NCBI GenBank assembly: GCA_002049455.2 | Contig: KV918890.1 | Location: 124,001-188,000, forward strand | Direction of reading: 5' to 3' | Origin: Porphyra umbilicalis | Taxonomy: Eukaryota; Rhodophyta; Bangiophyceae; Bangiales; Bangiaceae | DNA length: 64,000 bases | Shown: in pieces, positions 9,901-64,000 of the stretch | How the letters are laid out: every line of letters begins with the position of its first letter | Position numbering within the stretch: position 1 is the first letter of the stretch | Program-made: the position numbers and the translations under genes | Notes under the pieces: model-generated | The model's input: only the letters and a program-made list of their open reading frames with translations | Databases searched by the model: none | What the model was told of the DNA's origin: nothing

Positions 9901-9976
9901 CCCGTCGGCGAGTATCGTCATGGGGGAGGTGCCGCTCGTCGGGACGGGCACCTTTGAGTTGATGCAATCCTTTTAG
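3954..9976 (+). CDS. RPA1: DNA-directed RNA polymerase I largest subunit (A190/RPA1)
   Basis: Catalytic largest subunit of Pol I, which makes the rRNA precursor in the nucleolus. The ATG at 3954 sits in GCCGCCATGG and starts MDISTLDP. The clamp zinc motif is C70, C73, C80 with CPGHFGH. The active-centre [10 protein letters not shown], whose aspartates bind the catalytic magnesium, is encoded near 6147-6176. It is followed by VHFPQDE and PLRGLIQDH, which are Pol I rather than Pol II or III type. The C-terminus has [17 protein letters not shown] and the final GTGTFEL. With one base added it would encode about 2,007 residues, longer than the usual ~1,700, because of Ala/Gly runs near 4740-4860 and a large acidic Gly-rich insert in the jaw (about 8700-9350). 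The frame changes inside G14 at 5860-5873, most likely an assembly or homopolymer error in an essential gene. No introns are seen. Confidence 0.95.
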
Positions 9977-27210: not shown

Positions 27211-27365
27211 CAGGGTCTGGCCCTTCTTGATCAGTCGGGTCTACCCTGTGTCAGTTCTCACGGTGGTCGTTCTGCTGTGCTTTGTCTTGCCCTTGGGTGT
27301 GACTGTTCTGTTGAGATCGTCTTTGAGGATTGATTGTTACCGCAGGAGGACGGAGTCTTCCCGCC

Positions 27366-40500: not shown

Positions 40501-40735
40501 GCTGAGGATTCCGGGTGTCGGGAGCGCCGCGAAACACCGACACTGTCTGGCATGCTGTCTAGGACCGAAGTCAGAACCGTGGTCCACAAGTCGTCCAAAG
40601 GGTAACCACGCCTCGCTGAGTCCGTTTCTGGCATCAGAACTGGGATCCGACAAGCGTTTCGCTCACAAAGGGTCATCGAAAAACCGGATGAATTGATCCA
40701 AAAAGGATCATATGATCCGGTCGGGGGAATAAACA
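37596..40735 (-). mobile_element. PiggyBac-like DNA transposon, CTAG target duplication
   Basis: 3,140 bp bounded by terminal inverted repeats TGTATATTCCCCCGAC (left) and its counterpart TGTTTATTCCCCCGAC (right, complement), one mismatch in 16. CTAG flanks both ends (37592-37595 and 40736-40739). A perfect 16-bp-arm palindrome of GATCAAATGATCCGGT lies just inside the left end (37618-37651), and related GATCC words lie inside the right end. The empty site is preserved on the other arm of the surrounding inverted repeat near 43,475-43,490, which proves the limits. CTAG instead of the usual TTAA is unusual for PiggyBac. Confidence 0.85.
37911..40184 (-). pseudogene. PiggyBac-like transposase with three in-frame stops
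   Basis: A single frame runs from an ATG at 40184 (MAPDPRLVIGATVHAKAKHV) to 37911. It has an N-terminal domain, a Pro/Ala-rich linker, then the DDE_Tnp_1_7 core: FFGVLLLATRFEFG, NRFDDLW, VDESISKWYG (first catalytic Asp), KPENGCEIQNAACGRSGIML, GRVVCADSYFASVDA (second Asp), FIGVVKTAHRRFPM, and AEMYYSCAAKVDQHNRCRQDD (third Asp region). It ends in a Cys-rich finger (CRVCKKDRSSLVCSTC ... CFALHMRAVH) typical of PiggyBac C-termini. Stops interrupt it at 39164-39162 (TAG), 39089-39087 (TGA) and 38303-38301 (TGA). No frameshift is needed. This layout is close to PiggyBac-like proteins of oomycetes and algae. Confidence 0.85.
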
Positions 40736-41698
40736 CTAGTAGGGATCCATGCGTGTTCTCAACGCTCAGGCAGCCACATTGCATGGAATGAATGGCCTTA
40801 GTCGGTTTGATGGTCACCCTCTAGGCCATTTGATTGGATGATTCCATCTGCACGCTCAATCAAGAACATCCATGCTTCAGCATTCGATGGCTCACGATCG
40901 CTCAGGTCCAGATGGATCATACATGCAAGCGATTACAGATTTCTCCCAAAGCGTTTCCAGATGCCTTCGGGGAGCCCCCACTGTACAGTATAAACTCCAC
41001 ACCAAGGCCCAGAAATGTTCAGCAGCGCGCCTTTTTTGCGGCAGCGTCAGGATGGATGGCCACATTTTCTCGGCCTTTCGTGCTCTGCTGTTTCGTGTCG
41101 GACATATTGCGCATCCCTCAATGGTTTTCTCATCGCCAGAGAACGGGAGTGCAACAGCAATTCAGGGACGATTCTGATTGGACAAGAGGATCGACAGCAG
41201 TGCATGTCGGGTCCCATCGTTACAGAATGTGCCCGTACAGCCCGCAAACGCACAATCGGCGCACTCGTTTTTGTGAGATTATGTGAGAATCTCGAGGAAA
41301 GTCTCGATAACAAACTGCTCTTGGCTACTTTACCCCATGAGACGACTGAGAAAGGAAGAATATCTCAAGAAAACGGAGAATGTCGATTCTGCACGGACCT
41401 GGCGGTTGGAGAGCCAATGGTGCGTCGTAGATTCGCACTCAGTAGCTGTTTGCTGCTGTTATAGACCAATGGTTGGCCTGTTTTTCAAAGCAGTCCCGAT
41501 CTTGACCGATAAGGACAAAAATGACGGATGAGCAATACTAAAACACTCACTGCCTGTGAGGCCTAGCACTGGTCCTGGCCAAGGTGGGACTGAGCTGGAC
41601 AGTGTCCGCCCCACGGCCGGAGCGCCACCCCCCACAATCTGGAAATCTGCGCAGTGCAGTGGTTCTCGTTGTACATGTTTCCCATTTTCTTCCCGACG

Positions 41699-45247: not shown

Positions 45248-48200
45248 TAGGGTTTTCCAAGCGTAATTGGTTCATGCGTACCTCGCGCGTAATCTTCAAG
45301 CGAAACTCGCGTACGCTCTTTCTGAAGAGCTGCGGCTCCAGACTCGCCTCGCTCCGATTTGGTTTTGAGATCGATACGCTACCGGCCATTTTTCAAGCGA
45401 GTCTGGACAGATAAGCACTCGCGAAATATTCACAATCTCTCCGAGCGTAATACACGATGCGTGCGGGGGGGGGCAGGGGTGCATCAGGCAGTTTTTGGTG
45501 TGCCACGCGGCGTGGCACCCTGTCAGCCACGACCACCGGCATCCTGCCGCGGTCCCAGTCCGGGTTTTCCTCGCAGGATTTGGGCGAAGATTCCAACACG
45601 AGCACCACCCGCTCTCGACCGGCCGTGCAGCCGGTAGACTCGCGAGGTCTCGTAGGAGGGTAAGCCCTGGGCGTTGCCACCGTGCGCCTCCTGGGGGCTG
45701 GACTGGGCGCTGGGTGGCCCAGGCGGCGTCGACCGGGCCAGAGTAAGCGTTTTCGATAGTGACGCGTGCGACCTGTGGCAATACTGTTTTGTACGATTAT
45801 GTCAGATCGTAGCGAGCATTACCCCGGGGGTAGCCCACATGACGGCACGTGGCAACCAGAGGCAGCACCTGAGCCGCTGTATATTCTGCATTGGAACGCG
45901 CTGCCGTACCATCTTCACACACACGACTCATCCGCACGCGTCCTCCTCGATGAAAACCCCTACCGCTAGCATGTACAAACATGAGAAACAGACACACACC
46001 CCTTGCAGGCTCTCCAAATCACTCCTCATCAGCAGACGTGTTGATGTCGCCCTCAAGGTCTTGTTGCCTCCCCGCCATGGGCATCGCTGCTCGCACCTTG
46101 TTGGCTTGCTCGTTGGTCATGGCGGGCACGGCTTCGATGGGCGTGGGTAGCAGGTCGACGTTGTCGTGTATGAAGCAGTGCATCTCTAGGTGCTGGGGGA
46201 GGAGGCGGGTCCTGTTCTTGCGCATGACAGCACCGGCTGTCAAGAAGTCTCTCTCCGAGGCAGCCGACGATGCGACGGCCCCAAGAGAGGAGCACGCCAC
46301 CAGGTACAGCACAGGAAACTTTTCCTTGTACCCACGCCAGACGTGTTGCGGTTGCTGCTTCTGGTTGATCTCCGCAAGTTGCAGGAACGCCTCCAGCTCC
46401 GCACAAGCCGTCGCAGAGGGCGACTGCTGCTGCACAGCCGCGCTGTTGCTGCCGTTGATGAGCAGATCGATTAGGCTGCTTCTCGCGCGTCGCCAGGATG
46501 ACCGCGGGGCAGCCACTAGTGTGGTGGAAGCTGAAGGGTTGGAGGACGGCGCTAATGAGTTGCACAGTTCGCGTACGGAGGCCACGGCCGCGCCATAAGG
46601 ATCGGGTTGGTTGACCAGCTCCGAAAGTTTGCAGAGTAACGAGACGCCACCGGCAGACAGGATGCAAGACCGCAGCACTTCATGGTTCTTCAGCACGTTC
46701 TTGGTCGGGTCCTCGACGTTAAAGAACCGGGCGTCCAGCTGCTCGCGCAGCACCATGACCACTGCGGCGGCCTCGGCACATAGCGACTCCTTTCCTGGCT
46801 CGTCATCGACGTACAGCTCCTCGGCGGGAAAGAGGTAGTTGTCGACTTCAAACTTGAGCCCCGTGGGGTTGGGATCGCAGTAGGCCTCGATAGCACGATC
46901 ACCTACGGCGAGCGGGGGGGCAGTGTGGCACGGAACAGTCACCGTGGGGGAGTCTAAGGCGAGACGTAGGGATCCCAGCATGGACACAAGATCAATGAGC
47001 GCATCGTCGTCTCCCTCCGCCGCTGTTGTGACCTCAAAGGCCGAGCGCAAAACGCCTAGTATCTGACCCAACCTGTCCCAATCCGCCGAGGTCAGGCGAC
47101 GCCTCCGCTGGCTACTCTCCACTTTCGGCGACGCAAAGAACGCAGCAAGTGGGTCGTAGAGAGTGAGCATGCGGGCAATTGCGCGGTAGGTGGAGCCCCA
47201 GCGGGTCCACGTCTGTGATGAGGTCCCGCGAGTCACCTTGCTGCGGCACGTCCAGGTCGTGGAAGATCGCGGCGCTACGCTCCGAATGGTTGAAATGCCC
47301 CGTCAACTTTCGCATCCGTGCCAGTAACGCCTTAGTACGCGGGTTTCTGCTCCGGTCCCGTCGCACAACTACCATGCCGTCCGCATCCTCCAAGTCGCCT
47401 TGCGGTCGGCTGGAGGTCCATCCCAGGCTGTACTGCACCGCATTGTGCATGGAGTGCGCGAAGCAGGGCAGCCAGGGTGCCTCCATGTCATCGACGCAGG
47501 CCTTCCGCACGTTGGATCCAGAGTCCGTAGTCGTCGAGCAAACGGCCGACATGGCCAGCGAAAAGTACGCGAGCCGGCCGCGAAGGAAGAGCACAATGTT
47601 TGTATGGTCGTGTTTGCCAACAAATACAGAGACGCCGAGAGGCAAAACCGTCATTTCGCAGTCCGCAGGGTCGACGTAGCGGACGAAAACGGAGGCGTAG
47701 GACTTAGTTGTGTGTTTGTCGGTCCAAAGGTCGGTCACGACGTGAATGAGTGGTAGCCCACGCATTCTCTTCTTGGCGACCTGGAACTTCGTTCAAACGC
47801 AGTTGATGAGGTGCGTGTAAATCTCAAGGAGCAGCTTGACGACGGTGTCATTAGAGGGCGGAACGTACTTGGTGAGGGGCGCAAGTAACGCCCGCACGTA
47901 CTGATTGGCCGCCAGGAAATGCGGCGACAGAGTCATCATCTGCATGGTGACGAATCGTAGGTTGTCTGCTCACCGGTCCTTGTTGACAAATCGGTCAATG
48001 GAGTTGTTGGGGTTGAGGCGCTTCGACCGGTTGCCGCCCGCAACGTTCTTTAAGAATTGCACTACTGCTCGAGCGTGGGAGAGCTGCTTGGTCGTTGCCA
48101 AGTCCTTTGCCGCCGCCCACTCGAAGTGCCTGATACCGTTACTGTTGTTCCCCTTGTGCCTTAGTCGCAACGTCCTTGTTCAGCAGCGTGCACGTCGCAC

Positions 48201-49822
48201 GCTCGTACGTTACCTCGGTAGGGATCTCCCGCGAGGCACCACACAGCCCCAAAATGCTGTCCACAGACTCCAGGTTGCAGTCGTCTGCGTCCTTCGCCAG
48301 GGGTGCCAACTGCTGCTGACCACCAGCACCGCGCTTAGGTGGAAGAATGCGTTGGTCGTCGACACCACCGCTTGCCCCACGCTGACGGCCTGGTTCACGA
48401 TCCGCCGGCGGCACGTCCTGCACGTTACTTCCACCCATCCCACCACTGTCGGCGGCTCTCTCACCCTCGCCGTGGGTGCTCATCGCCGCGACAAATGGCA
48501 TCGTCGATCGCGTAAGTAGGTGCTGCTGGCGTGGTTAGGATGAAGGTAGATGGTCAGCAGGAGCAGAGGGAGAAAGCACCCCCCGCACACACACGCGCGC
48601 GGCCACCCACAACCAACAATCTACAGTAGCACGGATAGTGTCCCCCGCGACGTGCGCCACCGCCCGTCCTATCACCTGTGCTGGCATGCCGAAGCTCACC
48701 GGATCAGGACGAGCGGCAGAAGTCACTCGAGGTGGGTCAAAGTCCTAACAGCCCCTCCCCGGCCAGAAACCCAACCACCTCGCCCCTCCTAGACAGGCCA
48801 AAGGCCCCGGTTGGAACGAGAGTGGGTGACTCGCCACCCCCCCCGGGATTGCGTCCGCTTCACAGGCGACAACCCGTAAGGGGTGCCGCCGTCAGTTGTA
48901 GGTTGGCCACGCACGCGTGTGTACGGCGAATGCTCCCACCCTATGGGTGGCTGCGTCATGGTGTGCGTCTCACTCGCCAACGTCTATCATGATTGTCGGA
49001 GAGTTCCAGTGGATAATGCAGCATACCCGCTCGCGCAAGTGCACGCGGGCCAACGGGGCCAATCAAGCCGCCATGGCGACCACTCCCGGTGATGGGGAGG
49101 GTCGCCCGACTGGGCCCTGGTGGTGTGTTGGCCGGTCGCAGACGAGCCGCCCGTCGGAAATGGCACGCCCATCGCCAGCGCACACCCACGCGAGCGGCGA
49201 AGAGATGCAATCTCGTTCTCCCCAGTATGGCTTGGCGCAAGTCTCACATGCAATTGGTCGACCTTCCATTGGCGGCCTGTCATTGGAGCGAAAGGGGCTG
49301 TCCGACAGGTACACGTCACCACTTTGGAGTGCAGGAATTCACGACACAACGCCTCAGGGGGTCATAGGGGGTTGACGGCGGTGCTGACGTGGCAACCATG
49401 TTTCCAAGTTAGGCGGTCCACCCATCGCAGCGATTCGTTTGAACCACACCATTTTTCATTGCTGTGTCCGTGGCGCTCTGGCGAGAGTGTGCTTCGAAGG
49501 ATCCCGCTGGGCCTTTTCTGAGAGACGCGGCACACCACAGCAGGAATATGCCTACCTACCTCTGGTTCCCCGTCAAAAAGTAAAGTTGAGGAGGAATGGT
49601 TGACCCACAGGTCGACGGTTCATATACGCTTGTCCAGCAAAGCTGCAAATACGTTGTGGTCTCGTTCTCAAGCGTACATACGCTTGACACGTACGCTCAC
49701 TGCCAGAAAACATGTCCATTCGCTTCGCTGGAAGTCCAGAGCTGGTGGTACATATTCGCTGCCCAAAAGTCTACTTCTAAAATGATACGCCAATCCAAAA
49801 GTGCTACGCTTGGAAACCCCTA
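45248..49822 (-). mobile_element. Complete hAT transposon with 8-bp target duplication
   Basis: 4,575 bp. The left end TAGGGTTTTCCAAGCGTA and the complement of the right end TAGGGGTTTCCAAGCGTA match at 17 of 18 positions. An identical CTCAATAG flanks both ends (45240-45247 and 49823-49830), the 8-bp duplication diagnostic of hAT. Subterminal AAGCGTA/TACGCTT words recur inside both ends (45,262-45,320; 49,620-49,700), as expected for transposase-binding repeats. It encodes one broken transposase on the minus strand. Confidence 0.93.
46019..48501 (-). pseudogene. hAT transposase, inactivated by two stops and two frameshifts
   Basis: Read from 48501 downward: an N-terminal region with a BED-finger-like end (HKGNNSNGIRHFEW), then FVNKDR, the typical hAT N-terminal stretch (LAANQYVRALLAPLTKYVPPSN), VVTDLWTDKH, SVFVGKHDH, CFAHSMHNAVQYSL, TWTRWGSTYRAIARML, and the C-terminal dimerisation segment VLYLVACSSLGAVASSAASERDFLTAG with KNRTRLLPQHLEM. 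In-frame TGA codons lie at 47972-47970 and 47795-47793. Frame changes occur near 48,140-48,160 and near 47,236-47,255. The C-terminal 405-residue frame (47236-46019) is intact. The gene is dead, but its family is certain. Confidence 0.9.
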
Positions 49823-49830
49823 CTCAATAG

Positions 49831-51936
49831 TGTTTCACCAGAGGCTTCAGGAATGGGACTACCCCGGCTTCTAATTGGTCCTTCGGACCAGATAACCCGC
49901 GCTTTTTATTGGTCCTCAGGACCAGGTCAGGGCAGTATTACAGATATTAATGCTCGCTGACTAAACAATACTAGCATTTGTATACTTAGTGCCACGGAGC
50001 GGTCTGCGTAGTGCCGTGACACGACCAACCTACACCACACTCACAACACAGGCCCCACCACGGACAAGCCCCACCTGCTCCTTTGTGTCGCGGAACGAGC
50101 CGGGCGGAACACATGAGAGAGCAGCGAATGAAAGACAAAACAGAACGCAAGAGAAGAAATACAGCAAAGCAACACGCCAGATACACGAAGAGAATGACCA
50201 GCAGCGCAAGAAAATAACAAGCTCATATTGTCAGGACCTCATCTAAGCTTGACCTCTGCACAGTGTACAGGACAGTGTTTCCCTCACCCGTCCACCAGAG
50301 AATCGTCCGCGAGTAATACGTCCCCCCCTCCCCACCGGAATAACACCCGAGGCACCGAGAGAGATCAACATGCCAACGAAAGGAGGCGATACAGTCGCGG
50401 GGACTTACCAGTCGGGATGGTGGCAACGGGGGCCACCGAGAATGGATGCTCAAGTGACGGAGGCGGGCGGTGGAGGCGGGGGGGGGTCGCGACAGGGGGG
50501 TCGCGGTGCGGGGGGGGCGCGCCTTAGGGTGGTCAAGGCGGGAGGAGTGGTGATGGAGGGGGAAGACGACGGGGACGGGTGATTTCGGGGGGGGGGGAGG
50601 GCGAGGGGAGCACACAGCGGCACAGGGCGGCGCGGTAGCAGAGGACAGCGGCGGCTGCGTAGCAGACGAGTGCGAAGCAGGCGAGTGCGAGAGGCGGCCG
50701 ACGAAAACTGGTTCAAGAGGGCGCGCCCCTCGCACCCCTGCCACGTGGCGTCTCGTCCGCCTAACGCAACAAAGTGGAAGGGCGCGGCGCGAGCTCGTCA
50801 GAGTGTCAGTCGGAAGGCCCAGCAGCCGCTGTGGGTAGAAAGATTCCACGGCTGTCAGTCACCAAGGTTGTGCGAGGGCAGGTTCACTGTGTGTTGGAAT
50901 GAAGTTCCAGAAACTTTCTCGTGAAAGATATTCCAATATAAATAAGGAAGTATCTTCTGAATTGGACGGAGGACTGCCCTCCAGAAAATCCCGAAACAAG
51001 ACTGGCACATGATTTGGACGATTTTCTGTTTGGGCGCGGCAAGAAAATTCTAGGAACTGGCCTTGGAATTATCCTTGCCGACCTCCAGCATCAACCCTGT
51101 AGTCTTTTCCCGGGATGGTCTCGGGAACTGGTCAGGAACGGTTCCCAGGATTGTTCATAAGATTGTCTCTCAGCATATCCAACAGTACGTTCGAGGGACG
51201 ATTCTTCGAAACACATGCAGAAACTGATGTCAACGAGCACAGCAAGCTAGGAACAGGATGTTGCTGCAAACTCCTCTCTGAAAATTGTGCGGCAAGGAAC
51301 GAGCTTCCTGACCCAGTCCTTGCCTTCAAACAGAAGGAGACACCATGCCCGAAGAAGGTCGCGCGCGCGTTCAAAGGATAGTCGTGCGAGGAGTTCGTCG
51401 CTGTTTGTGTGGAACGTACCCAGACCCATTCTTGTGAACGTGTTCTCCAGATGAGCTTGAAAGAAGTCCACGGAAAAGCTCCTCTGCATCCTCCGCGGCA
51501 TTTCCCTCGCACTTTTACGCAGACGGTCGTTGCTCTTTTTCAGAGGTCGGTCCGACGGGAAGACGCTCAGATTTATGAGCAATACACCTCCGAGGCAGTC
51601 TTCGAGGCCAATCCACAGGACTGTTCCTATGACGGCGGTGCATGACGGTCCCGTGCTGTTTCTTGGCGCGATATGTGAATGGTGGCAGGAATAAATTTAA
51701 TACGACAAATAGGAACAAGTAAGAGTAACATGATACAGGTACGACAGTAAAAGAGAAAAAGAGAAAAAAAAAACTGCACCCTCCACTCACTTGCAGAGAT
51801 CTTCGTGGGACAGAGCTCGCCGGACAGGGCTCCTCAGATTCTCGGCAGAGCATGAAACCTGTATCTCTGTTGCCGAGGCAACAACACCCTTGTGCAGCCG
51901 TATTCAAGGCATGTCGCGAAGCATCACGTCAGAACA
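49831..51936. other. Non-coding stretch, nothing recognised
   Basis: No ORF has a domain pattern. A pair of palindromic words (ATTGGTCCTTCGGACCAG and ATTGGTCCTCAGGACCAG) lies at about 49,876 and 49,911. The region 50,450-50,620 is a G-rich low-complexity patch. The remainder is of moderate GC. Confidence 0.4.
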
Positions 51937-53017
51937 TTAGTCTGAGTCTTCGTCAGATAGATCAATGTCACCGGCCTTCAGGTCTTTGAGCTCATCGCGC
52001 ATGCGGCGTACGACGCCCTTGCGAGCCTCAGCGCTCTCAGGGCGTAAAAACTTGGGGTACGCGGCGTCGTCCACATATTTCTTTAAGCAAGCCGCAGCAC
52101 CTTCACGCACAGATGTCCACACCTCGCTCGGGTCCAACAACAGGAGCTCCCCTACTATAGAACCGGCAGCTCCATTCATATCCAGCGCTCGCTCCATTTC
52201 CTGACTGCCGTCCTGCAGTTTCAGGCGGTACCCAATGTTGCTTCCACTGGCCAGGGCAGCAGGCTGCGGGACTGGAGCGGTGTCGTTCACGCCGTGGGCC
52301 AAAACAACGCATTCTAACGTGGCCTCTTTCACGTCAGCGTCCATGTATACCCCCAGGGTACGATAGGCAAGCAGTCGGGCCGATGCGCGTCGGCGATTGC
52401 ATCGTGTTCGTAGACCCTTTCTCAGCGCAGCTCGCACTTCACGCCGTTTCTGGGACCATCCGTTCGCGCCGTGGTCAATCTTTCCGACGCACTTCTCAAC
52501 CGCCTTGTTCACAACAGCGCGCAGGGGGCGAGTGCAGTCTCGATTGGGGCCTTCCAGTTGTCCCGTCGGGGCGAGCCACGAAAGGCAGTCATGTTCAGGC
52601 GAGTCAGCTGCGCTTCCATTCAAACCAGGGTTCACAGATCCATTTCGTATCTCCTTGAGCATAGCTTGGCCGTACCTGGTGAACAGGCGGCTAACCTCAT
52701 CCTACAGGAGACAAGCTCAACCAGCACGTAAGCATGGAAGGGGAATGAGGCGACACCGTCGCGTACGCACAACCAGCCATAAGCGAGCTTCTAAGTTAGG
52801 TCATACGTCGATGCAGCGCGCCTTGTGACGCTGCTCAGCAACGACAGCGCATCGCATGACCACATGCAGCCACCTGCTCCGTATCCAACAGCACTCAAGA
52901 ACGTACCCCGTGAGAGCTCCATACACTCAAGAAAAAGGCAGCATCGACAGCAGGTGAGCTGGCACCCGGTGAGCCATGCGGCGTGCCGGTGTCGTCTTCG
53001 ACGTCAAATTCAACCAT
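51937..53017 (-). CDS. Unknown spliced gene, two exons (53017-52907, 52701-51937)
   Basis: Exon 1 starts MVEFDVEDDTGTPHG and ends before a GTACGT donor at 52906. Exon 2 follows the acceptor CTCCTGTAG (ending 52702) with DEVSRLFTRYGQAMLKEI. The 205-bp intron is phase 0 on both sides, giving 291 residues. The middle is basic and helical (AVVNKAVEKCVGK, RREVRAALRKGLRTRCNRRRASARLLAYRTLGVYMD). The C-terminal half has EMERALDMNGAAGSIVGELLLLDPSEVW and a very acidic end (DIDLSDEDSD). No family recognised. The matched splice phases and sharply acidic C-terminus support a real protein. It may belong to the large element to the right, on the opposite strand. Confidence 0.6.
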
Positions 53018-53984
53018 CGTCGCGTTCGTACTCAAGCGGATGGCTGCAATAGCGTCTCACTGGATGAAGAGCAAAGCGTTCAGCTCCAGATAGCCACTGC
53101 AGTCCACAGAGCCAAACAGGACAACTGGTGCCCGTAAAGGATTGGCAAGCGCGTGCATCAGAGCATACCACATGCGGTGCGCTCAAAACGCGGTATCTGC
53201 GTTCGCGCACCTCCACCTGCACCTGCGTGCACCTCCGAAGTATCCGGGCGGCCACGGATTGCACATCAGACCGATGAAATTTCACCAGCCACGCCCCACA
53301 GTGCCCTCTTGCAGTAAGTACGTTCCTTGGCGACCATTGGTCGAGACCGACTACGCCACAGTCTCGGAGACAGCCGCTGTGCCGAGAGCAAGGGAGGACC
53401 CCCGATGGCTACAGATGAGCAAATCAGAGCCTTCATTCCGCGCTATGCGCTTGAGCGGTACTTCTAGGTAAACTTCTTCAGCTGGTCCTTCGCGAGGCTC
53501 ACAAATTACTCCATTGTTTAAAATTTCGCGGGGAGATATGCCGTTATCCGGCCTCTGAATAGCGGCCGACGAGTGATCTCGATTCAGCCGTCGTCCCCGT
53601 CCATGCCGAGGGCGAATCTCGCGGAGCCACACGTTTGGGGGTCGCTAGGAAGCGCCGCAGGGAGGGGCTCGCTGCGCGCGCGCTGTGCGGGTGCGGGCAG
53701 GGCGGGTGTTTCATTCGTGAACAGGCGCTCGCCGAGCGGTGCGTGGCGCCCAGTCCGTGCTTCCCCGTCACCGTCGTTAGACCTCCCCCTTCGTCGTCAC
53801 TGTTTTGCACACCACTTTTATCTCGCACACGCGCTGTTCGATCCATTTTCTCTCGCTGTCGCATCCTGAGACACCTCCACGATCCCCTCTCGCTCGATCC
53901 TTTCTAGCTCCACCCAGTCGCGTGATATCGTACCCCCAGTGCGGCGCGATCATTGTTTACTCGCTGGCCACTACGTGGAGGCCA
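53018..53984. other. Possible divergent promoter region, no firm gene
   Basis: A minus-strand ORF (53,632-53,351) ends in an ordered stretch (GPAEEVYLEVPLKRIARNEG) and could be an exon, but no splice partner was found. The rest shows no coding pattern. Confidence 0.35.
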
Positions 53985-54440
53985 GCCGGATCGCGGCCCG
54001 CCCCTCTGTCGGGCAGGGCCGCGCATCCGCGCCGTCGACAGGCGCGTCCCGCTCACGCGGCCGACCGCCGTCGTCGCCTGTGGGCCGCCTCTGCCGACAG
54101 GCGGCCCCTGGACACTGTTTGGGCCGCCTCTGTGGACAGGCGGCCCCGGTGTGAATCGGAGTCGGCCACCTTCGGGGCGTGACGGCTGGATCGTGGCCCG
54201 CCCCTCTGGCGGGCAGGGCCGCGCATCCCTGCTGTCGACAGGCGCGTCCCGCTCACGCGGCCGACCGCCGTCGTCGCCTGTGGGCCGCCTCTGCCGACAG
54301 GCGGCCCCTGGACACTGTTTGGGCCGCCTCTGTGGACAGGCGGCCCCGGTGTGAATTGGTGTCGGCAACCTTCGGGGCGCGCCGGCTGGGCCACGGCCCG
54401 TCCCTCTGTCGGGCAGGGCCGTGCATCCCTCTTTCGGTTA
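53985..54440. repeat. 200-bp tandem repeat, two full copies and a partial third
   Basis: Equivalent bases recur at 53991, 54191 and 54391 (TCGCGGCCCG, TCGTGGCCCG, CCACGGCCCG), giving a 200-bp period at over 90% identity by eye. Each unit contains an internal near-duplicate GGGCCGCCTCTG...GACAGGCGGCCC that is also an inverted repeat. It lies just upstream of the giant plus-strand frame and may be its promoter or an element end. Confidence 0.9.
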
Positions 54441-54510
54441 GGCTGTCTGCGTGCCGCGTGCCTTTAAGAGAGCATTGGCACGGCGCCGACGCCGCAGCGT
54501 GCCACCGACC

Positions 54511-54961
54511 ATGACAAAGGACGGGGCCCACTCTGATGAGATCGGCGACAACGGCGTAATGAGCGGATCGGACGACACGGCTGGGCGGGGGGCCAACTAT
54601 GCCCGTGGCCAGCGGCGCCGATTCGCCCGAGCACAGGTGCACGCCGCACGTATCGCCGCTGAGGCGCTTCGGATGGCCCAGGCGGCTGCAGCAGCCGCCG
54701 ACGCATTGCAAGCCCCGGGTCGAGACGCGGATTGGCACGCGCCTCGGACCGGTGACTCTGGGCCCCGGCTGTTTGTGCCAGGTGGCGCTGTTCGTGGCGC
54801 CAATGGCCGCACGGTCGATGCCAGCGTGCGTGGCGGCGGTGGCACGCTGATCCGACTCCCCAACCGGCGCGGACTGGACGGGGCCCGATCAGGCCTCCAA
54901 GATCGACAATCAAGAAAGAGCAGCCGCACTGACGGGCCGTCGCACGGCCAAGCGGCATCAG
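54511..54961 (+). CDS. Possible N-terminal exon of the giant frame
   Basis: An ATG at 54511 opens a frame (MTKDGAHSDEIGDNG) that continues with an Arg/Ala-rich helical stretch (RRRFARAQVHAARIAAEALRMAQ). The better-looking sequence after about 54,855 is in the next frame (DWTGPDQASKIDNQERAAAL), which leads into the 54,962 ORF. Either a short intron or a one-base frame change joins them. I could not find a convincing splice pair. Confidence 0.4.
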
Positions 54962-57844
54962 ATGTGGTGCAAGGGCCCAACGCTTCCCTCCGAGCGCGTG
55001 ACCCCTCCGGGTCTGAAGCGCGGGTGCCGCAATGGCCACGCTGTGGCGGTCGCGGCATCGGGTGGGGTGAGAGATCACGCTTGTCACGCCGGCCTGTTGG
55101 TGTCGGAACGAGCTCCTGCTCGAACCGAGCACGCGATTGGATCGGGCCCTGCTCCACCGTCCATTGCATCTCCGTTTGCCTCGGTCATCCAAGGGGCTCG
55201 TGGAACGCTGATTGGCTCCGTCGGCGGGCTATCTCCCGGGCAACTGACAATGGCCGTTGCTGCGCTCGAGTTTTCTGGCCCGAGCTTCCTGCCAGACAAT
55301 TCGCGATTGAAAGTTATGCGGGACTGCTCGGCGGGGTGTGGCAACGTGGTGGGTCTTGATTCGACGATGCTAGGCTCTGTAAGCATGCTGCAAGGTGGGG
55401 GCTCTGTTTCGCAGGCGGCTCGATTTCTCCTCCAGGGCCTCCTTGCACATGCATGCGATGGAGGATGCCGCCCCGCGCCACGCCCGCCGCCTCCACCGGT
55501 GGGATCACCACCTAACCGGCTCGCGCCATCTCGCCGACCCCGGCCCCCGCAACTCAACGATTCGCCGTCGACGACCCCGGCGCCTATTTCGTCGCCGACC
55601 AAGCGCCACCGCGGTGAACGTTACCCTCGGCCAGAGCTGCAGCGGACTGCGGAGCGTGCTGACGCCTCGGGTGAGCATACAGGGCCCAACGCTTCTGCCT
55701 CGGAGGGGCCGTGGCTCTTTCCCCGCAATGCCGAGCGCCGCGTTGAGCTTTCGAGTGGAGACGCTCAGTCTGTTCGTGGCAGGAGCTCATTGTCCCAGCG
55801 GGTTGTCGATGGTGTCTTCTTTTGGTTCCTCTCCCGGGCGGTCACGTCGCGATCGCGTGGCGGCGCCCGTGTTTTGTCTTCTATGACTGCTGACGCGTTC
55901 GTCGGCGCCGCGGCTGGCAAGTCGTGGGGTGTGCGCCTTGGGAGCAAGGCGATTAGGGACGGCATGGTTCTGAGCGGAGGAATGACGGTGATGCCTGTGC
56001 GTTTCGGCAACGTGTGGTGGGGCGTGGTCCTGAGAGACTTGGACCAAGTTTTGCCGGTGTTAGTGCGCTACATGCGGCGTGAGACGGAAGCCGCCGAGGT
56101 CCTGAACTCGGCCAACGGCGCGATAGTGGTCATAGACACCTCTGGAGTTGGCAAGGGGGATGGGGGCTGGAATGAGTGTGTGCTGCAGGGGTTCATCAAG
56201 ATGCTGGCCGTCGTTGTGGCGCAGGTTCACTCCATCGACACGGAGTATTGCTTCCGCGTTGAGAGCAACTTGAGAACTATACTGCCTGTGTCGGTCATTG
56301 CGCCGCGGCGGAGCGACGCGCGCGAGACAGCCGACAACCTCCTGTCGTACGTCGCTCTTCTGTTCGGCGCACCCAACGACGCTAGCAGGCGAGATTTCTT
56401 GGACCCGCACTCTTCCAAGTGGCAGCAGGCGGCCTACGCCCCTGACTTCCGACATCGTCTCCGGCACCTGCTCGTTGCTCATTACCCTGTGCATGACCAG
56501 CTCAAGGAGGAAGAGCAGGCTGATGCGATTTTGAGTGGACGCGCTGCTGACAACCCCGACGATAGCGATTGCGGCGGTAGCTCTTGCCGAGATGCTCATA
56601 TGGGCGACCGCGACGGTAGCCATGACGACGACGACGAGGGGCCAGGATCGGGGCGGGACGCACGACACAGTAAGGGACGCAGCCGCCGCGGCGGATCTGG
56701 TGGTAGTGGCGGTAGCAATGGCAGAGGCGGTCGACGAGCAGGTGCTGCCAGCGGTGGACGCCATACTGACCATAGCCAACGTCGAGGCCAAAGCGGTGGC
56801 CAACGGCGGCCTGATGCTCGTTTCGGCGCAGGTGATCATGTCCCAGCTCGTCTGGGCGCTGACGGTGGTCGGGGTGGCAGAGGTCAAGGTGGCAGTCACG
56901 GTCGATCTGATGGGCATGTTGGCGGAGACGGTCAAGTCGCCGTTCGCGCTGGTCGTGGTCATGATGGCGGACGATGTGTTGCAAGTCAAGGTGCGGGCGG
57001 CAATTGCCATCAGCTTGGTGGTCGCGTTGGTAGCCTCGTTGATGAGGCAGGTGGCGCCGGTGGTAGTGGCGACGGTGGCCGTCGTGGTCACGGTCCAGAT
57101 CAAGGCGGCGGTCGCGGTCGCGCCGACGGGCGAGTTGGCGGAGACGATCAAGTCGCCGCTCGTGCTGGTCGTGGTGATGATGGCGGTCGGGGTGTTGCAC
57201 GTCAAGCTGCGGGCGGCGATTGCCGTCAGTCTGGTGTTCGTGTTGATAGCCACGTTGATGAGGCAGGTGGCGACGGTGGCCGTCGTGTTCCCGGTCCAGG
57301 TCGAGGCGGCGGTCGCGGTCGCGCTGACGGGCGAGTTGGAGGCGACGATGGAGTCGTAGGTGGTGCGGGTCGTGGCGCGTATGATGGAAGAGATGGTCAA
57401 GGTGCCGCTCGAGGCGGTGGGCGCTGTGGGCCTGATGCTCAAGTTGGTGGTCACGATGCAGTGGCAGGTGGTGCCGGCCGTATTGGCGATGGTGGCCGAG
57501 GTGGTCACGGTCCAGGTCAAGGCGGCGGTCGCGTTCAGGCTGACGGGCGCGTTGGCGGAGACGACCAAGTCGCCGTTCGTGCTGGTCGTGGTGATGATGG
57601 CGGACGGGGTTTTGCGCGTCGAGGTGCGGGCAGCGATTGCCGTCAGTCTCGTGGTCGCGTTGGTAGCCACGTTGATAAAGCAGGTGGCGCCGGTGGTGGT
57701 GGCGATGGTGGCCGACGTGGTCACGGTCCAGCGCGAGGCGGCGGTCGCGGTCGTGCTGATGGGCGAGTTGGCGGCGACGGTGGAGTCTTAATCGCTGCGG
57801 GTCATGGCGCTTTTGATGAACGAGATGGTCAAGGTGCCGCTTGA
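54962..57844 (+). pseudogene. N-terminal part of giant transposon-associated frame; possible degenerate Ulp1-like domain
   Basis: 960 codons ending at a TGA (57842-57844). After a Pro-rich linker (residues ~165-260) comes an ordered region (about 277-505): VVDGVFFWFLSRAV, MTVMPVRFGNVWWGVVLRDL, AIVVIDTSGVG, then SDARETADNLLSYVALLFGA. This order resembles Ulp1/SENP cysteine peptidases (WLND helix, LLLPVHxGxHWxL, YYDS, SDCGVFxC), but the catalytic His and Cys would be Trp and Asn, so it would be inactive if related. Then an acidic/Ser patch and the start of 36-residue Gly/Arg/Asp repeats. The TGA falls in a repeat unit where the other copies have CGA. The frame continues past it through the array into the JmjC region. 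Confidence 0.5.
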
Positions 57845-59720
57845 GGCGGCGGGCGCTTTGGGCCTGATGATCAAGTTGGTGGTCACAATGCAGTGGCAGG
57901 TGGTGCCGGCCGTGTTGGCGATGGTGGCCGAGGTGGTCACGGTCCAGGTCAAGGCGGCGGTCGCGTTCGGGCTGACGGGCGCGTTGGCGGAGACGACCAA
58001 GTCGCCGTTCGTGCTGGTCGTCGTGATGATGGCGGACGGGGTTTTGCGCGTCAAGGTGCGGGCGGCGATTGCCGTCAGTCTGGTGGTCGCGTTGGTAGCC
58101 ACGTTGATGAGGCAGGTGGCGCCGGTGGTGGTGGCGACGGTGGCCGTCGTGGTCACGGTCCAGCGCGAGGCGGCGGTCGCGGTCGTGCTGATGGGCGAGT
58201 TGGCGGCGACGGTGGAGTCTTAATCGCTGCGGGTCATGGCGCTTTTGATGAACGAGATGGTCAAGGTGCCGCTCGAGGCGGCGGGCGCTGTGGGCCTGAT
58301 GATCAAGTTGGTGGTCACGATGCAGTGGCAGGTGGTGCCGGCCGTATTGGCGATGGTGGCCGAGGTGGTCACGGTCCAGGTCAAGGCGGCGGTCGCGGTC
58401 GGGCTGACGGGCGCGTTGGCGGAGACGACCAAGTCGCCGTTCGTGCTGGTCGCCGTGATGATGGCGGACGGGGTTTTGCGCGTCAAGGTGCGGGCGGCGA
58501 TTGCCATCAGGTTGGTGGTCGCGTTGGTAGCCACGTTGATGAGGCAGGTGGCGCCGGTGGTGGTGGCGACGGTGGCCGTCGCGGTCACGGCCCAGGTGAA
58601 GGCCGCGGTCGCGGTCGCGCTGACGGGCACGTTGGTGGCGACGATGGAGTTGTAGGTGGTGCTGGTCGTGGCGCTCATGATGGACGAGATGGTCAAGGTG
58701 CCGCTCGAGGCGGTGGGCGCTGTGGGCCTGATGCTCAAGTTGGTGGTCACGATGCAGTGGCAGGTGGTGCCGGCCGTATTGGCGACGGCGGCCGTCATGG
58801 TGACGGTCCAGGTCAAGGCGGCGGTCGCGGTCGGGCTGACGGGCGCGTTGGCGGAGACGATCAAGTCGCCTTTCATGCTGGTCGTGGTGATGATGGCGGA
58901 CGGAGTGTTGCACGTCAAGGTGCGGGCAGCGATTGCCGTCAGTCTGGTGGTCGCGTTGGTAGCCACGTTGATGAGGCAGGTGGCGCCGGTGGTAGTGGCG
59001 ACGGTGGCCGTCGTGGTCACGGTCCAGCGCAAGGCGGCGGTCGCGGTCGCGCTGATGGTCTAGTTGGCAGAGACTATGGGGTCGCAGATGGTGCCGGTCG
59101 TGGCGCTAACGGTGGACGAGATCGTCAAGGTGCCGCTCGAGGCGGCGGACGCCGTCGCCCTGATGGTCGAGTTGGTGGTCACGATGCAGTGGCAGGTGGC
59201 GTCTGCCGTAATGGCGACGGTGGCCGAGGTGGACACATTCAAGAACAAGGTGGCAGACGCCGTCAGCCTGGTAGTCGAGTGGGGTATCATGACGATGTTG
59301 ATGACGATGGGGTACCTGGTGGTGCAGCAGGACGTGATCGTCATGATCAATGACAAGGCGGAGGTCTCCGTCGGCCCTACGAACGAGGCGGCGGTGACAA
59401 TGAGGCCGCAGGTGAAGCTGGCCGTGGAGGTGATGGTGCACAAGGTAGTCAAGGTCATGGAAAAGGCGGCGGTCACGGTCGCCCCGATGATCGAGGTGGC
59501 CGTGACGACGACATTGCACGTGGTGCTCATCGTGACGCTGATGCTGGACGGGGTGGTCAAGGTCAACGTCAAGGCGGCGCACACCGTCGGCCTGTTGGTG
59601 AAGGTGGCGATGTCGACGAGGTCGCTGACGACGGGGTCGCACGTGATGCTCGTCGTGGTGCTGATGCTGGACGGGATGGTCAAGGTCAACGTCAAGGCGA
59701 CGCATGCTGTCGGCCTGTTG
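56880..59720 (+). repeat. 432-bp higher-order tandem array of four 108-bp (36-residue) units
   Basis: Equivalent words (ATGGTCAAGGTGCC or ATCGTCAAGGTGCC) occur at 57393, 57825, 58257, 58689 and 59121, exactly 432 bp apart. Each 432-bp block reads, in the frame of the flanking proteins, as four 36-residue units sharing RVGGDDxVA...DGGRGG...GGGRxRADG. More divergent units lie on both sides. All periods are multiples of three. T/C differences between neighbouring copies fall mainly on the third codon position of this frame, which supports it over the other open frames on both strands. Confidence 0.9.
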
Positions 59721-61609
59721 GTGAAGGTGGCGGCCTGAGGGGTGGGCGGGTGGCGCACGGTGGTGCTGGAGGCAGTGGTGAAGGGGGTCTGCATGCACTG
59801 GCGCGGCTGCAACACGATGAGTCGGTGGTGGAGCCGCAGACTGCCGAGCACGAAGGCACGAAGTTCCACTCAATTCCTGTCACCTGCATAACCACCCTTC
59901 CGGACCTCGGTCTGCTTGGCTTGATTCGATCGCAAACAGCGTCCATCCGTACATTTGGCGCACACGTGTTTCGAATAGTAGCACCCCATATTCGACCTGT
60001 GTCATGCGCGGCGCCAAAGCGGAAAGTTGGCGTGAAAGTCCGGGTGCGGATTCAAACTTTCCCGCAGTACCCAACCATTGTCAGTGCGTCCTTCGGTGGT
60101 AGCACGCAGGCGCATCCTGGTGTGAATCGCGAAGAGCTACGAGATCAAATGCCGCCAGAAAGGGAGATGATGCTATCGAGTGCTGAGGTCAAGAAGAGGA
60201 TGCGCGAGAGCACAACCGCTCTTCGCGCCCGATACAAGGACTTTGGTGTTCCTCAGTTCCTTCAGAACGTCAATGATCCGAGGGTCACCTGGATGCGAGG
60301 TGTGACTGCAGGTGGGCGCGAGAAAAGAGCCCTTGGTCCTGGAAAGCCCCAGCCAATAGAGGTGTGCTACGTCTCCGACATGACTCCAGCGAACGAAGAT
60401 GGGTGTGGCAGGAGCCTGGGCGATCGAGCCTGTACAGCCAAACCGGAGCCCTTTCCGCCGAATGAGCGCTTGCAGAACCCTCGTACTCTGAACCACCACA
60501 GCATGCTTGGTGCCTGTGCCACATACGAAGGCATCAACACTAGCTTTCTCTATATGGGAAGCGTTGGGTCTCACTTCAGTTGGCATGTAGAGGACCATCT
60601 GCTGCAGTCGACTTCCTACCTGCAGTCCGGGGCGAACAAGTTCTGGTTTTTTGTTGCGAGGTCTGAGGTTCCAAAAATGGTACGCGTCATAAGTGAACAC
60701 ATGGACCCTGTCGTTCCGGCAGCTGCAGGAGGTGACGTGTGGACGTTTCTAGCGGAGAAGGCAGTCTTGTGGCCTGCGTCGTTTTTCCTTGCGCACGGCG
60801 TTCGCGTCGGCTTCCACAAAATGGAAGTTGGCGACTTCGTCGTGACGGGCTACGGCGTTCCGCACAGCGGATTCAACGCGGGAACGAACGTAGCGTCTGC
60901 AGTAAAACTTGCGTGCACTGGCTGGCTTGCGCATGCTATTGAACATGAGGCCCGCTGGCGTGGAAAGATAGGGATGCTTATTCCATTCGAGAAGCTGCTC
61001 GTACTGAGCGCCCTGAAACTGGCTGCTGGAAAGTGGTGGTTTGGCGATGCGAAAGCCTATGAGGCGTGCGACCCAGCAGAGTTTCGACGGGACCTCCGAG
61101 TCATGACCTCCTTCTTGACCGAGTATCTAGACTGCATCCTTGCGTACATGAGAACCGATTCGCATCCAGCCTGGAAGGGAGAAAACGCAGTCGTCGTGGA
61201 CTTACAAGCGGCACCCCACGCTGTGAAGCAGTTTGTTACCGATAACGCGATCAAACCAGCCGGTCACGGGTTGGTGCTCCCCAACGAGAAGGATGGAGTC
61301 GTCACAGACTACTCTGTGGACGGTGCGGCGTGCCCTCATTGCGGAACTGTCGTCTGGATGTCCTTGGTCGTGTGCCCGGCATGCATTGACCAGCTAGGCG
61401 ACGGAGCTGGACCGAGTGCGCCGATCTGCTGCTGGCGGTGCGCACCGACCAAGTACGACGATCTGCACTACCGGCCCGAGCAGGCCAGCGGGAAGGAGCC
61501 GCACCTCGTTGGATGTCACGCTCCTTTGGTGGTGCAGCGGCTATCCAATGGCCGCGTGTACTCGCTAGTGGAGGAGCTGAAGACGATTTGGGACATGGGT
61601 AGTGACTAA
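59354..61609 (+). CDS. JmjC-domain dioxygenase with C5HC2 zinc finger (KDM5/JARID-like)
   Basis: The frame runs from the TGA at 59351-59353 to TAA at 61609. It starts with the last Gly-rich repeats, passes a JmjN-like stretch (LGLIRSQTASIRTFGAHVFRIVAP), then the JmjC domain: FLYMGSVGSHFSWHVEDHLLQS with Fe(II) ligands H (codon 60584) and E (60590), SYLQSGANKFWFFV with the 2-oxoglutarate lysine position, LWPASFFLAHGVRVGFHKMEVGDFVVT, and YGVPHSGFNAG with the third ligand H (60863). Near the end, CPHCGTVVWMSLVVCPAC ... CCWRC ... YDDLHYRP matches the C5HC2 finger that follows JmjC in KDM5. No in-frame ATG exists before the JmjN-like part, so the protein must start far upstream, as a fusion. Ligands are intact, so histone or other demethylase/hydroxylase activity is plausible. 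Confidence 0.85.
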   Translation, partial: QGGGLRRPYERGGGDNEAAGEAGRGGDGAQGSQGHGKGGGHGRPDDRGGRDDDIARGAHRDADAGRGGQGQRQGGAHRRPVGEGGDVDEVADDGVARDARRGADAGRDGQGQRQGDACCRPVGEGGGLRGGRVAHGGAGGSGEGGLHALARLQHDESVVEPQTAEHEGTKFHSIPVTCITTLPDLGLLGLIRSQTASIRTFGAHVFRIVAPHIRPVSCAAPKRKVGVKVRVRIQTFPQYPTIVSASFGGSTQAHPGVNREELRDQMPPEREMMLSSAEVKKRMRESTTALRARYKDFGVPQFLQNVNDPRVTWMRGVTAGGREKRALGPGKPQPIEVCYVSDMTPANEDGCGRSLGDRACTAKPEPFPPNERLQNPRTLNHHSMLGACATYEGINTSFLYMGSVGSHFSWHVEDHLLQSTSYLQSGANKFWFFVARSEVPKMVRVISEHMDPVVPAAAGGDVWTFLAEKAVLWPASFFLAHGVRVGFHKMEVGDFVVTGYGVPHSGFNAGTNVASAVKLACTGWLAHAIEHEARWRGKIGMLIPFEKLLVLSALKLAAGKWWFGDAKAYEACDPAEFRRDLRVMTSFLTEYLDCILAYMRTDSHPAWKGENAVVVDLQAAPHAVKQFVTDNAIKPAGHGLVLPNEKDGVVTDYSVDGAACPHCGTVVWMSLVVCPACIDQLGDGAGPSAPICCWRCAPTKYDDLHYRPEQASGKEPHLVGCHAPLVVQRLSNGRVYSLVEELKTIWDMGSD

Positions 61610-62107
61610 GTCGACAACGTTCTTGCATTCTGTGGGTTTCGTACTTCTTTGTCTGTATGTGAGTTGAGTGGCAGTTTTGTGATGCTCACTGGGGCGCCTT
61701 CATCATGTGATGCCTCTCCTTTGATTCCTTTGTTCCGTCGATCAACGGGGCGCTGCACGCACCAACGTCGCGGACAGAAACTCCCGCGCCATCGTGCACA
61801 GGGATCTGGAATGGCTTGCGATAGATTATACAAGCCATGGCGTCGGCACAGGTCTGTACGAAGAGTGAGGTCCCTTCCAAGAGAGAGAAAAAGTAGTGGT
61901 TGCGAGCGACGACTGGCAAAGATGGCGAAATGATACTTCTCTTTTGGCTTTGAATCTTAACTGAAAATGTGAACAACTCTTCCTACGAAGCTTCTCTGCT
62001 TGTCTCTTGCGACCGTATCAGCACGATAGGTCTATAAAAAGTCGTGCAATAACAGCCTTTTCTGGGCTACCGTCTCCGTGCTCCTCGCAAAACTCATGCA
62101 GCCTCCC
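61610..62107. other. Convergent spacer between JmjC frame and transposase
   Basis: About 500 bp between the stop of the plus-strand JmjC frame and the stop of the minus-strand transposase. No coding pattern; moderate AT content, suited to two 3' ends. Confidence 0.5.
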
Positions 62108-64000
62108 TCAGCCGCTCTTAAAGTGGAAGCCCGACTTCTTTGTGAACAGTACCTTGTCCGCGCCGCAAGGGCGAATAAAAGCAGACTGCAGTACGCGCTC
62201 AGCTTGCACAAGTTCCACGCCGGACGTAGCGTCGAGTTGGACTACCGTAGGTTTCCCAACAATGCATAAGGCTGACGCAGGGGCTGTCCACCATTCACAT
62301 TCAAGGTACAGCTCTTCCGCAATTGTGCCAATCGCTCGGACGCGACCGAATTGTACTCTCTGCCCTCCTGTCGTGCTGGGGTCGTTCAATACGTCACATG
62401 CATCTTCTTCTTGGAGCACAGACACTGTCGACCCCTCTCGAATGAAAAATGATCGCTGTGGGTGCCTGGCTTTCCTCCAGAACTTGACGGGCGCGTTGGG
62501 TGTGTGACCCCGCCAGAAGTCTTCTGTCGAACCCAAAACCATACTCAAGGCTTCCCTACCGCACCACCTTTGGCCAGTGGCGGATGCCAACCGCCTCTGC
62601 GGAGCGAGCCTGTGAAAAGAGACGGCCTTCAATGGATTACCGCCGAGGCCAAGCAGCCACGATTTCGGAATGCCGTACTCATCAGGCATGGACAGTGCCC
62701 TTGAGTACTGCTCTGTGTCTCTCCACCTTTGCATTGAACATTCCGCAGGGTTCCGATGGTTGCTCTGGCCGATCTCGCGCTTCGCCATCTGATGGAAGTT
62801 CTCAAAGATGAGCTCGCATATTGATGAGCCGAGCTGCACCAACGGTAGAGTACGATACAGCAACTCCAAAAGGCGATGAACGGCAGGCCGCTCCCACTTT
62901 CCGCTGAACGGTTGCAGGCGACGCAACTCAATCATCAGACTCTCGCCGAGACGTTGGAGCTCAACGACTGTTGGCCGTTCCCTCACGGCATGCTCTCCGT
63001 CAGAGCACAGAGTCGGCCTATAAAACAGAGCAGTATCGAAATGTCGTAGGGCCTTCAGAGCGGTTACAGTAGCAACCGCATGTGCAGAAGTACTTGAGGT
63101 GTGCACACTGTACTCCAGGACCGTGGGACCCACGGTAAGCAGCCCTGCGTAGTCGGCCATAGAAAGAGTCGTGCCACCCATTTTTTCAGGCTCAAAGGAT
63201 GATAGGATCGTGTGTGTTGGAACATGTTTCGAACTGCGGCGCATTTCTGAAATGAATTTGTCACGCTGCGCGACAGAGAGTGCCTCGTATGCTTCCATCA
63301 GGAGGTTGGATGCAATGTTGTAGTACAAAAGGTGAGATGGTGCAACAATGACATGTTCGTGTATGTCAAACGTCCCAGGACCTCGGGCCTCAGTCAGTCG
63401 CATCATCAGGCTACCTGACTTGTCCGTAACTCCATTTAGCAGGAGTGCGTCTTTCATAGCTTCTGCAGACAACTGCGTAGATCTCTTCAGGGAAGACATG
63501 ATGGCAGCTGTTCGCTCTTGCACTCTGGAGTACCTTGTGTCTTTGACATCAAAGGAAACTGTGCTGCTCATCGCGCGATCCCTCCTCTCGCTCTTAGTCT
63601 TCGGATGGACAATGTCGCAGCTGGTGCAGTGCTCAGTTCCTGGAGCTCCTACAGAGTTGGAGAACTTGGCCGCCATAGGAAAATCAAACACGCCCAGGCA
63701 CAGGAAAACCCGAACCACGACGTTTTCCTTTGAGTGCGCGTCATACACGGCAACACCTTCCTTGCTCATTTGGAGCATGTCCTCGACGACACGCTTCAAG
63801 AGAGCTTCAGGGTTTGCCCCAGGTGGTAAGTAAAAGAGTGGCCGAACGGAGAACGCACGATCATGCAAGCTCAGAGACGTATACGCTCCGTAGTAGCCCT
63901 CTAAGCTCCCAGGGCGTCGCTTGTACACGCTAAACTCATCCGCGTACAATGAAACGTACAGAGTGTGTGGGTGTTTTCTCTGGCAGCTCGTCTTCGTTTT
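62108..64000 (-). CDS. tnp2-type (CACTA/Transposase_21-like) transposase, 5' end beyond the window
   Basis: The frame is open from the window edge (64000) to a stop at 62108, at least 630 residues. It begins SCQRKHPHTLYVSLYADEFSV, continues with AFSVRPLFYLPPGANPEALLK, GVAVYDAHSKENVVVRVFL, then FDFPMAAKFSNSVGAPGTEHCTSC, the tnp2 signature of a small Cys pair after a 'D(F/L)PA' segment. Later HVIVAPSHLLYYNIASNLL matches the 'MHLLDLGV' block and SSICELIFENFHQMAKREIG the late glutamate block. The C-terminus ends FHFKSG. No stop or frameshift is visible, so this copy may be functional. It is convergent with the JmjC frame, 500 bp away. Confidence 0.75.
   Translation of the reverse strand, partial: KTKTSCQRKHPHTLYVSLYADEFSVYKRRPGSLEGYYGAYTSLSLHDRAFSVRPLFYLPPGANPEALLKRVVEDMLQMSKEGVAVYDAHSKENVVVRVFLCLGVFDFPMAAKFSNSVGAPGTEHCTSCDIVHPKTKSERRDRAMSSTVSFDVKDTRYSRVQERTAAIMSSLKRSTQLSAEAMKDALLLNGVTDKSGSLMMRLTEARGPGTFDIHEHVIVAPSHLLYYNIASNLLMEAYEALSVAQRDKFISEMRRSSKHVPTHTILSSFEPEKMGGTTLSMADYAGLLTVGPTVLEYSVHTSSTSAHAVATVTALKALRHFDTALFYRPTLCSDGEHAVRERPTVVELQRLGESLMIELRRLQPFSGKWERPAVHRLLELLYRTLPLVQLGSSICELIFENFHQMAKREIGQSNHRNPAECSMQRWRDTEQYSRALSMPDEYGIPKSWLLGLGGNPLKAVSFHRLAPQRRLASATGQRWCGREALSMVLGSTEDFWRGHTPNAPVKFWRKARHPQRSFFIREGSTVSVLQEEDACDVLNDPSTTGGQRVQFGRVRAIGTIAEELYLECEWWTAPASALCIVGKPTVVQLDATSGVELVQAERVLQSAFIRPCGADKVLFTKKSGFHFKSG

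Follow-up and report, generated by a model that had tools for sequence, protein, structure and literature searches.

The window analysed here is a stretch of 64,000 nucleotides from the red alga Porphyra umbilicalis (assembly GCA_002049455.2, contig KV918890.1, positions 124,001 to 188,000). Its right part is occupied by a CACTA/EnSpm DNA transposon, identified as such by its CAC...GTG ends, its 2-bp target site duplications and its Tnp2 transposase. Gene 2 of this element, which was pointed out as one giant frame in an earlier note made from the letters of the window, is the main subject of this report. The element and its parts are as follows, in window coordinates.

50883..50884, no strand: target site duplication TT, left copy; the right copy follows 65,885
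50885..64000 and on to 65,885 in window coordinates (C130:189885), no strand: CACTA/EnSpm transposon, 15,001 bp, delimited by a sharp loss of similarity at both ends
50885..50914, plus strand: left terminus, CACTGTG...; the right terminus ends ...CGCTGTG
51940..52701, minus strand: gene 1, an open exon of 254 codons that codes for a conserved protein; the C8 copy (another subfamily) is 89% identical
54511..55050 (end approximate), plus strand: true N-terminus of the giant protein, from comparison with L039 and from database protein P0025
55181..55468, plus strand: N1, a conserved domain predicted to be helical, with Cys and His residues (C-x3-C ... H-x-C-x3-C in the window copy)
55670..56560, plus strand: N2, a conserved domain, the "Ulp1-like region" of the earlier note, with a weakly SENP-like stretch at 55,976-56,314
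56621..59863, plus strand: low-complexity linker rich in Gly, Arg, Asp and Ala, 1,081 codons, with a core tandem array at 57,046-59,236
57842..57844, plus strand: in-frame TGA, damage, from the open-frame list and comparison with L039
59351..59353, plus strand: in-frame TGA, damage, from the same two sources
59864..61609, plus strand: C-terminal module to the stop codon, with JmjC (PF02373) at 60,545-60,904 and a Cys-rich tail at about 61,300-61,520
62108..64000, the rest to about 65,141, minus strand: gene 3, a convergent Tnp2-type transposase (PF02992)

The window also holds genes and mobile-element remains outside this element. The largest subunit of an RNA polymerase (Rpb1 domains 1 to 5) is spread over two overlapping frames at 3888-9976, where the left part of the window is GC-rich, and a GMC oxidoreductase with both domains above cut-off lies on the minus strand at 24857-26497. 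LTR-retrotransposon-like genes at 27330-33444 encode reverse transcriptase, RNase H and integrase, with weak zinc knuckle and chromodomain matches, and transposase pieces of other superfamilies are found on the minus strand at 39162-40817 (DDE_Tnp_1_7) and 46019-47236 (hAT dimerisation region). Elsewhere in the genome there are 10 light-harvesting matches, among them the light-harvesting chlorophyll protein L067 (C7:542700-543330), whose nearest solved relatives are antenna proteins of several algae, which we take to be mostly red algae and cryptophytes.

The boundaries of the element are the points at which DNA similarity to other copies drops, window 50,885 and C130:189,885. All five left ends that were read are CACTGTG, and the six right ends read comprise four CGCTGTG, one CGCTCTG and one CGCGGTG. 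The five copies with both ends read are each flanked by a 2-bp target duplication (TT in the window, TG in C15, CA in C254 and in C24, AC in C13); the left end of the C27 copy was not found in the stretch examined. The C15 copy measures 15.2 kb, and the greater end-to-end distances of the C24, C13 and C254 copies (22.6, 23.2 and 48.8 kb) presumably result from later insertions. Only a few terminal bases are inverted, and by eye one subterminal word is seen in the same orientation at both ends. Classical CACTA elements have a target site duplication of 3 bp. In the available part of PMC12730594 the range given for the CACTA/EnSpm clade is 2 to 5 bp, within which the 2 bp found here fall. At window 49822-50889 lies a dispersed repeat, about 1,070 bp long and 91-92% identical at six places over its full length. 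It ends no more than 5 bp from the element's left end, and the element was probably inserted at or into it.

The transposase, gene 3 of the element, matches PF02992 (Transposase_21/Tnp2) with E 3.2e-7 and 30.2 bits against a cut-off of 28.6, and its relative L047 scores 29.3 bits; the sequence of L047, looked at by itself, has a CTSC pair and Asp residues that are candidates for the DDE residues. The window frame is split into two registers near 63,939-64,015, where L047 has 1,010 codons, and uninterrupted copies exist for both the transposase and the giant gene. A Pfam search with gene 1 gave no family above cut-off, and its single dN/dS comparison, window versus C8 copy, gave 0.09. Between genes 1 and 2, directly upstream of the giant gene, lies a 200-bp tandem repeat (53988..54430) with the same repeated frames in the C15 copy, possibly a control region.

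The whole genome (83.8 Mb in 665 contigs) was searched for relatives of these genes. The JmjC part of the giant gene occurs at 78 separate places (81 rows before split pieces were merged) with up to 99% identity to the window copy, and the transposase at 70 (71 rows before merging). A convergent transposase lies within 6 kb at 57 of the 78 JmjC places, with a median gap of 279 bp, and is absent from that distance at the other 21; conversely, JmjC is present at 65 of the 70 transposase places, when JmjC places known from the Pfam search only are included. Pairs that are almost the same in sequence but lie at different places, for example L022 and L023 with zero synonymous changes in 559 codons, suggest recent movement unless they are duplicated stretches of the assembly. 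JmjC and Tnp2 are also adjacent in a second, diverged clade on C212, C164, C31, C90, C284 and C194 (L005, L006), with identities of about 35% for JmjC and 47-49% for the transposase, and because this clade exists the JmjC-Tnp2 partnership is probably old within the genome.

The earlier note had described a single plus-strand register, open from 54,962 through 61,609 except for two TGA codons, and this is exact; both codons are those listed above. It had also held that the JmjC part cannot start locally, and in the window no ATG precedes the stretch that it named JmjN-like. Its account holds for the fusion and not for the start: the MWCKGP... at 54,962 is not the beginning of the gene, since the uninterrupted relative L039 begins upstream with MTKDGAHS, and the corresponding segment in the window starts at ATG 54,511 in a register that differs from that of the long frame. 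Comparison with L039 places a change of register near 55,050 in the window copy, followed by the two TGAs. Copies lacking both TGAs, which the note had proposed to look for, do exist elsewhere. L039 is one of them, its JmjC part being 98% identical to the window's, and because it has neither codon we read the two TGAs as damage of the window copy, so that gene 2 is slightly broken here. The Gly/Arg/Asp repeat of 36 residues was correctly recognised as well; the array has a period of 432 bp with sub-periods of 216 and 108 bp, corresponding to 144, 72 and 36 residues. What the note missed is that the frame belongs to a CACTA transposon as one of its genes and that the window holds a damaged copy of it.

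Uninterrupted frames of 1,848-2,570 codons hold 13 of the 78 JmjC places, and for all 13 the search with the N-region gives a match in an equally long frame of the same contig. In the four copies inspected, L039 (2,390 codons), L042 (2,200), L043 (2,570) and L044 (2,018), the N-part, a linker of 867-1,271 residues and the JmjC part share one frame; this agrees with the note's single long protein and is the opposite of halves encoded as separate genes. In the fused frame the four linkers have no stops where first-order Markov resampling leads one to expect 18.8-24.0, none of the 300 resamples made for each linker was free of stops, and the other five frames contain 2-90 stops each. These copies were picked for their long frame, and the argument lies in the contrast between frames and in the array periods. 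The arrays of three among the four copies differ in sequence, and the longest period of each is divisible by 3 (432, 312 and 435 bp), which does not hold for some of the sub-period consensus lengths; the linker of L044 is long, is not a tandem array and has 13% Gly. A single frame likewise runs from N2 over a low-complexity, Gly/Arg/Asp-rich segment to the beginning of the C-part in two database proteins, P0023 and P0029, whose N-regions share 55% and 36% identity with the window. The core array itself is only loosely constrained, with dN/dS 0.84 in a comparison of two close copies. We conclude that the fused giant frame is real and is gene 2 of a CACTA-type transposon, with about 1,850-2,570 residues.

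No recognised Pfam domain is found in the N-part of this protein. The earlier note had seen a Ulp1-like N-terminus and had suggested an HMM search against peptidase C48, and this search does not bear the idea out. The Pfam C48 profile (PF02902) matched none of six N-region relatives at a limit of E 10, although HMMER's filters discard the majority of matches weaker than about 0.1. Across the genome it finds 133 places with E no higher than 1, and none of them comes closer than 12 kb to any of the 88 JmjC places (the 78 plus 10 extra Pfam places) or 74 N-region places (of 100 rows) with which they were compared. In an hhalign alignment the position of the catalytic His of C48 is occupied by Trp in all six relatives, and a Cys at the catalytic spot, judged by eye, is present in two of the six, both of the window subfamily. 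An active Ulp1 protease was rejected on these grounds, namely the absent C48 match, the replacement of His by Trp and a Cys in only two relatives. The weak hint of a SENP-like fold within N2 (55,976-56,314) means that this domain is possibly a degenerate, dead form of that fold. As a separate matter, many of the 133 Ulp1/C48 places lie in open frames of about 1,000-1,700 codons and possibly belong to another mobile family.

The JmjC part is recognised by Pfam (PF02373, E 2e-15), and in a single-sequence search its nearest solved proteins are Arabidopsis JMJ13, JARID1C and KDM4D. The domain is KDM4/KDM5-like with an Fe-binding H-x-E...H, from which a demethylase function is predicted. The earlier note's KDM5-like JmjC/C5HC2 module was right as to JmjC, and its other parts are not supported: neither JmjN (PF02375) nor zf-C5HC2 (PF02928) has a Pfam match at E up to 1, and another conserved Cys-rich tail is present. 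Motifs and dN/dS were studied in 26 of 30 loci fetched out of the 78 JmjC places. HSGFN is kept in all 26 copies and WH-x-E in 24, being lost in the remaining two, and the adjacent K-x-WF motif is missing in three. In a tree of 13 rows, which has long branches, the nine element JmjC rows form one group (100/99) apart from three other genomic JmjC genes and P0024, a KDM5-like protein; by BLAST score L003 is the closest of these three genes to the element JmjC. Profile comparison with P0024 covers the JmjC core only, the JmjN and zinc finger regions lying outside it. A structure model of the JmjC part (pLDDT 39.8) is too poor for use.

Between subfamilies dN/dS is 0.12-0.19 for JmjC (eight comparisons), 0.14-0.18 for the transposase (three) and 0.22-0.54 for N1 plus N2 (six). 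Many of the synonymous distances exceed 1, a range in which the simple method gives rough values. By these estimates purifying selection on the JmjC part is equal to that on the transposase. Within subfamilies, where changes are few, the values run from 0.3 to more than 1, which fits young copies in decay. Identities of the JmjC part and the transposase also agree in rank (Spearman 0.70 in 38 of the 57 pairs), a figure on which we do not rely. Because selection on it appears as strict as that on the transposase, the JmjC part most likely serves the element itself.

Transposon-borne modifiers of epigenetic marks are already in print. The available text of PMC12730594 describes TET/JBP enzymes, erasers of DNA methylation, in fungi and SET enzymes, writers of histone methylation, in Phytophthora. 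The fungal TET/JBP transposons (Kyakuja, Zisupton, Dileera, EnSpm, Plavaka and others) resemble the present element, by that account, in being DNA transposons with a dioxygenase thought to erase silencing marks, and their EnSpm representative shares CAC..GTG termini with it. They differ in that the fungal enzymes act on DNA bases, whereas the present element joins a KDM4/KDM5-like JmjC to a low-complexity linker within a giant fusion protein, and in that fungal EnSpm makes target duplications of 3 bp rather than 2; the term JmjC has no occurrence in the main text of that paper. The HarbingerS and MuDR elements of Phytophthora, as cited there, also carry a histone-modifying gene, but their SET protein is a methyltransferase and they belong to other superfamilies, whereas ours is demethylase-like and CACTA.

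Plants offer further parallels. The part of PMC13317346 available describes Vandal/VANC and Kaonashi (KIU) elements with a transposon-borne anti-silencing protein, joined in KIU to a Ulp1 domain; these are MULEs, jumonji and demethylase do not occur in that text, and the Ulp1 identity of our N2 is only putative. The CACTA-ULP elements of plants are, in the accessible text of PMC2528002, likewise Tnp2-type CACTA elements with an extra Ulp1-like region, but JmjC has no occurrence in it and N2 here lacks a Pfam C48 match. On the protein side, KDM4/KDM5 and plant JMJ13/JMJ14 have the JmjC core, the Fe-binding H-x-E...H and a Cys-rich C-terminal tail in common with the present protein, which differs from them in its want of Pfam JmjN and zf-C5HC2 matches, its giant N-terminal extension and its many copies in a transposon. 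Judged by the portions of these papers at hand, the nearest parallels are Ulp1 in plant CACTA and VANC-type MULEs (PMC2528002, PMC13317346) and KDM4-like JmjC in endogenised giant viruses of Amoebidium (PMC11244446). A full-text literature search that left out Repbase Reports and most subscription journals found no JmjC gene inside a transposon. Thus, as far as we found in print, the new point is a histone-demethylase-like enzyme within a giant fusion, and transposon-borne epigenetic modifiers as such are known.

Among other explanations, a set of separate genes for the N-part, for the JmjC part and for something antisense within the array, seemingly fused through a GC-rich array open in several frames, is quite improbable. 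The array is indeed nearly open in several frames and the reading frame of the window copy is disturbed by two TGAs and a shift of register, but in all four uninterrupted copies read only the fused frame is without stops, the longest array periods of three copies are multiples of 3 despite their different sequences, N-region and JmjC matches share same-length frames in 13 of 13 long copies, and no local ATG starts the JmjC part in the window. A captured passenger, a JmjC gene that rides along with no role for the element, would be in keeping with the captured gene fragments that transposons often carry (available text of PMC13317346). We regard this as very improbable in view of a between-subfamily dN/dS that is the same for JmjC and transposase, their joint presence at 57 of 78 places and the uninterrupted long frames in several subfamilies.

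It is unlikely, too, that the JmjC protein has a role other than anti-silencing, whether in guiding integration or in helping transposition beside the transposase, structurally or by binding DNA, or that its JmjC acts on a non-histone protein. Such a role fits an N-part without a recognised domain. CACTA elements usually carry a second protein beside Tnp2 (TNPA of En/Spm), and JmjC enzymes hydroxylate non-histone targets too, both of which count in its favour. Against it, the closest solved relatives are KDM4/KDM5 histone lysine demethylases, most of the copies examined retain the catalytic motif, and gene 1 is itself a candidate for a TNPA-like partner. Endogenised giant viruses in which KDM4-like JmjC genes have expanded are reported from Amoebidium, this being the most enriched endogenised domain there in the available part of PMC11244446. 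Such an origin is hardly credible here, where the 15-kb unit is bounded by CAC...GTG ends, has target duplications of 2 bp and encodes a Tnp2 transposase, and where the Pfam matches of its scanned frames (a subset) include no virus family; a weak Phage_tail_C row among them is far below its cut-off.

We therefore regard it as probable that the giant JmjC protein encoded by gene 2 of this CACTA element is an anti-silencing factor of the transposon. A JmjC end apparently conserved as strictly as the transposase suggests that the element is equipped with a means of its own against silencing by the host, and by precedent of the fungal TET/JBP and Phytophthora SET elements we infer anti-silencing as the most economical role. 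The mechanism that we propose would operate in a family of many copies, some of them seemingly very young, with three genes, for a small conserved protein, the giant JmjC protein and the convergent Tnp2. The N-terminal part (a basic/Ala-rich stretch, N1 and N2) would bring the protein to the chromatin of the element, and the low-complexity linker may be a flexible or nucleic-acid-binding tether that gives it reach. The JmjC module would then strip a repressive histone methyl mark, and its removal would allow the transposase to be expressed or make the element accessible. The copy in the window is a recent insertion that is already damaged. The full version of this reading, a transposon-encoded demethylase that is joined to a targeting region, perhaps an inactive SUMO-protease fold, and to a fast-changing, low-complexity and often Gly/Arg/Asp-rich array, and that erases repressive marks at copies of the element, is one that we favour slightly.

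If this is true, the family would be the histone counterpart of the TET/JBP-bearing transposons of fungi. It would offer dozens of natural JmjC variants under selection, together with arrays that alter their length and sequence fast yet keep the frame, and, if the function holds, it would become testable whether a mobile element defeats histone-based silencing with an enzyme of its own.
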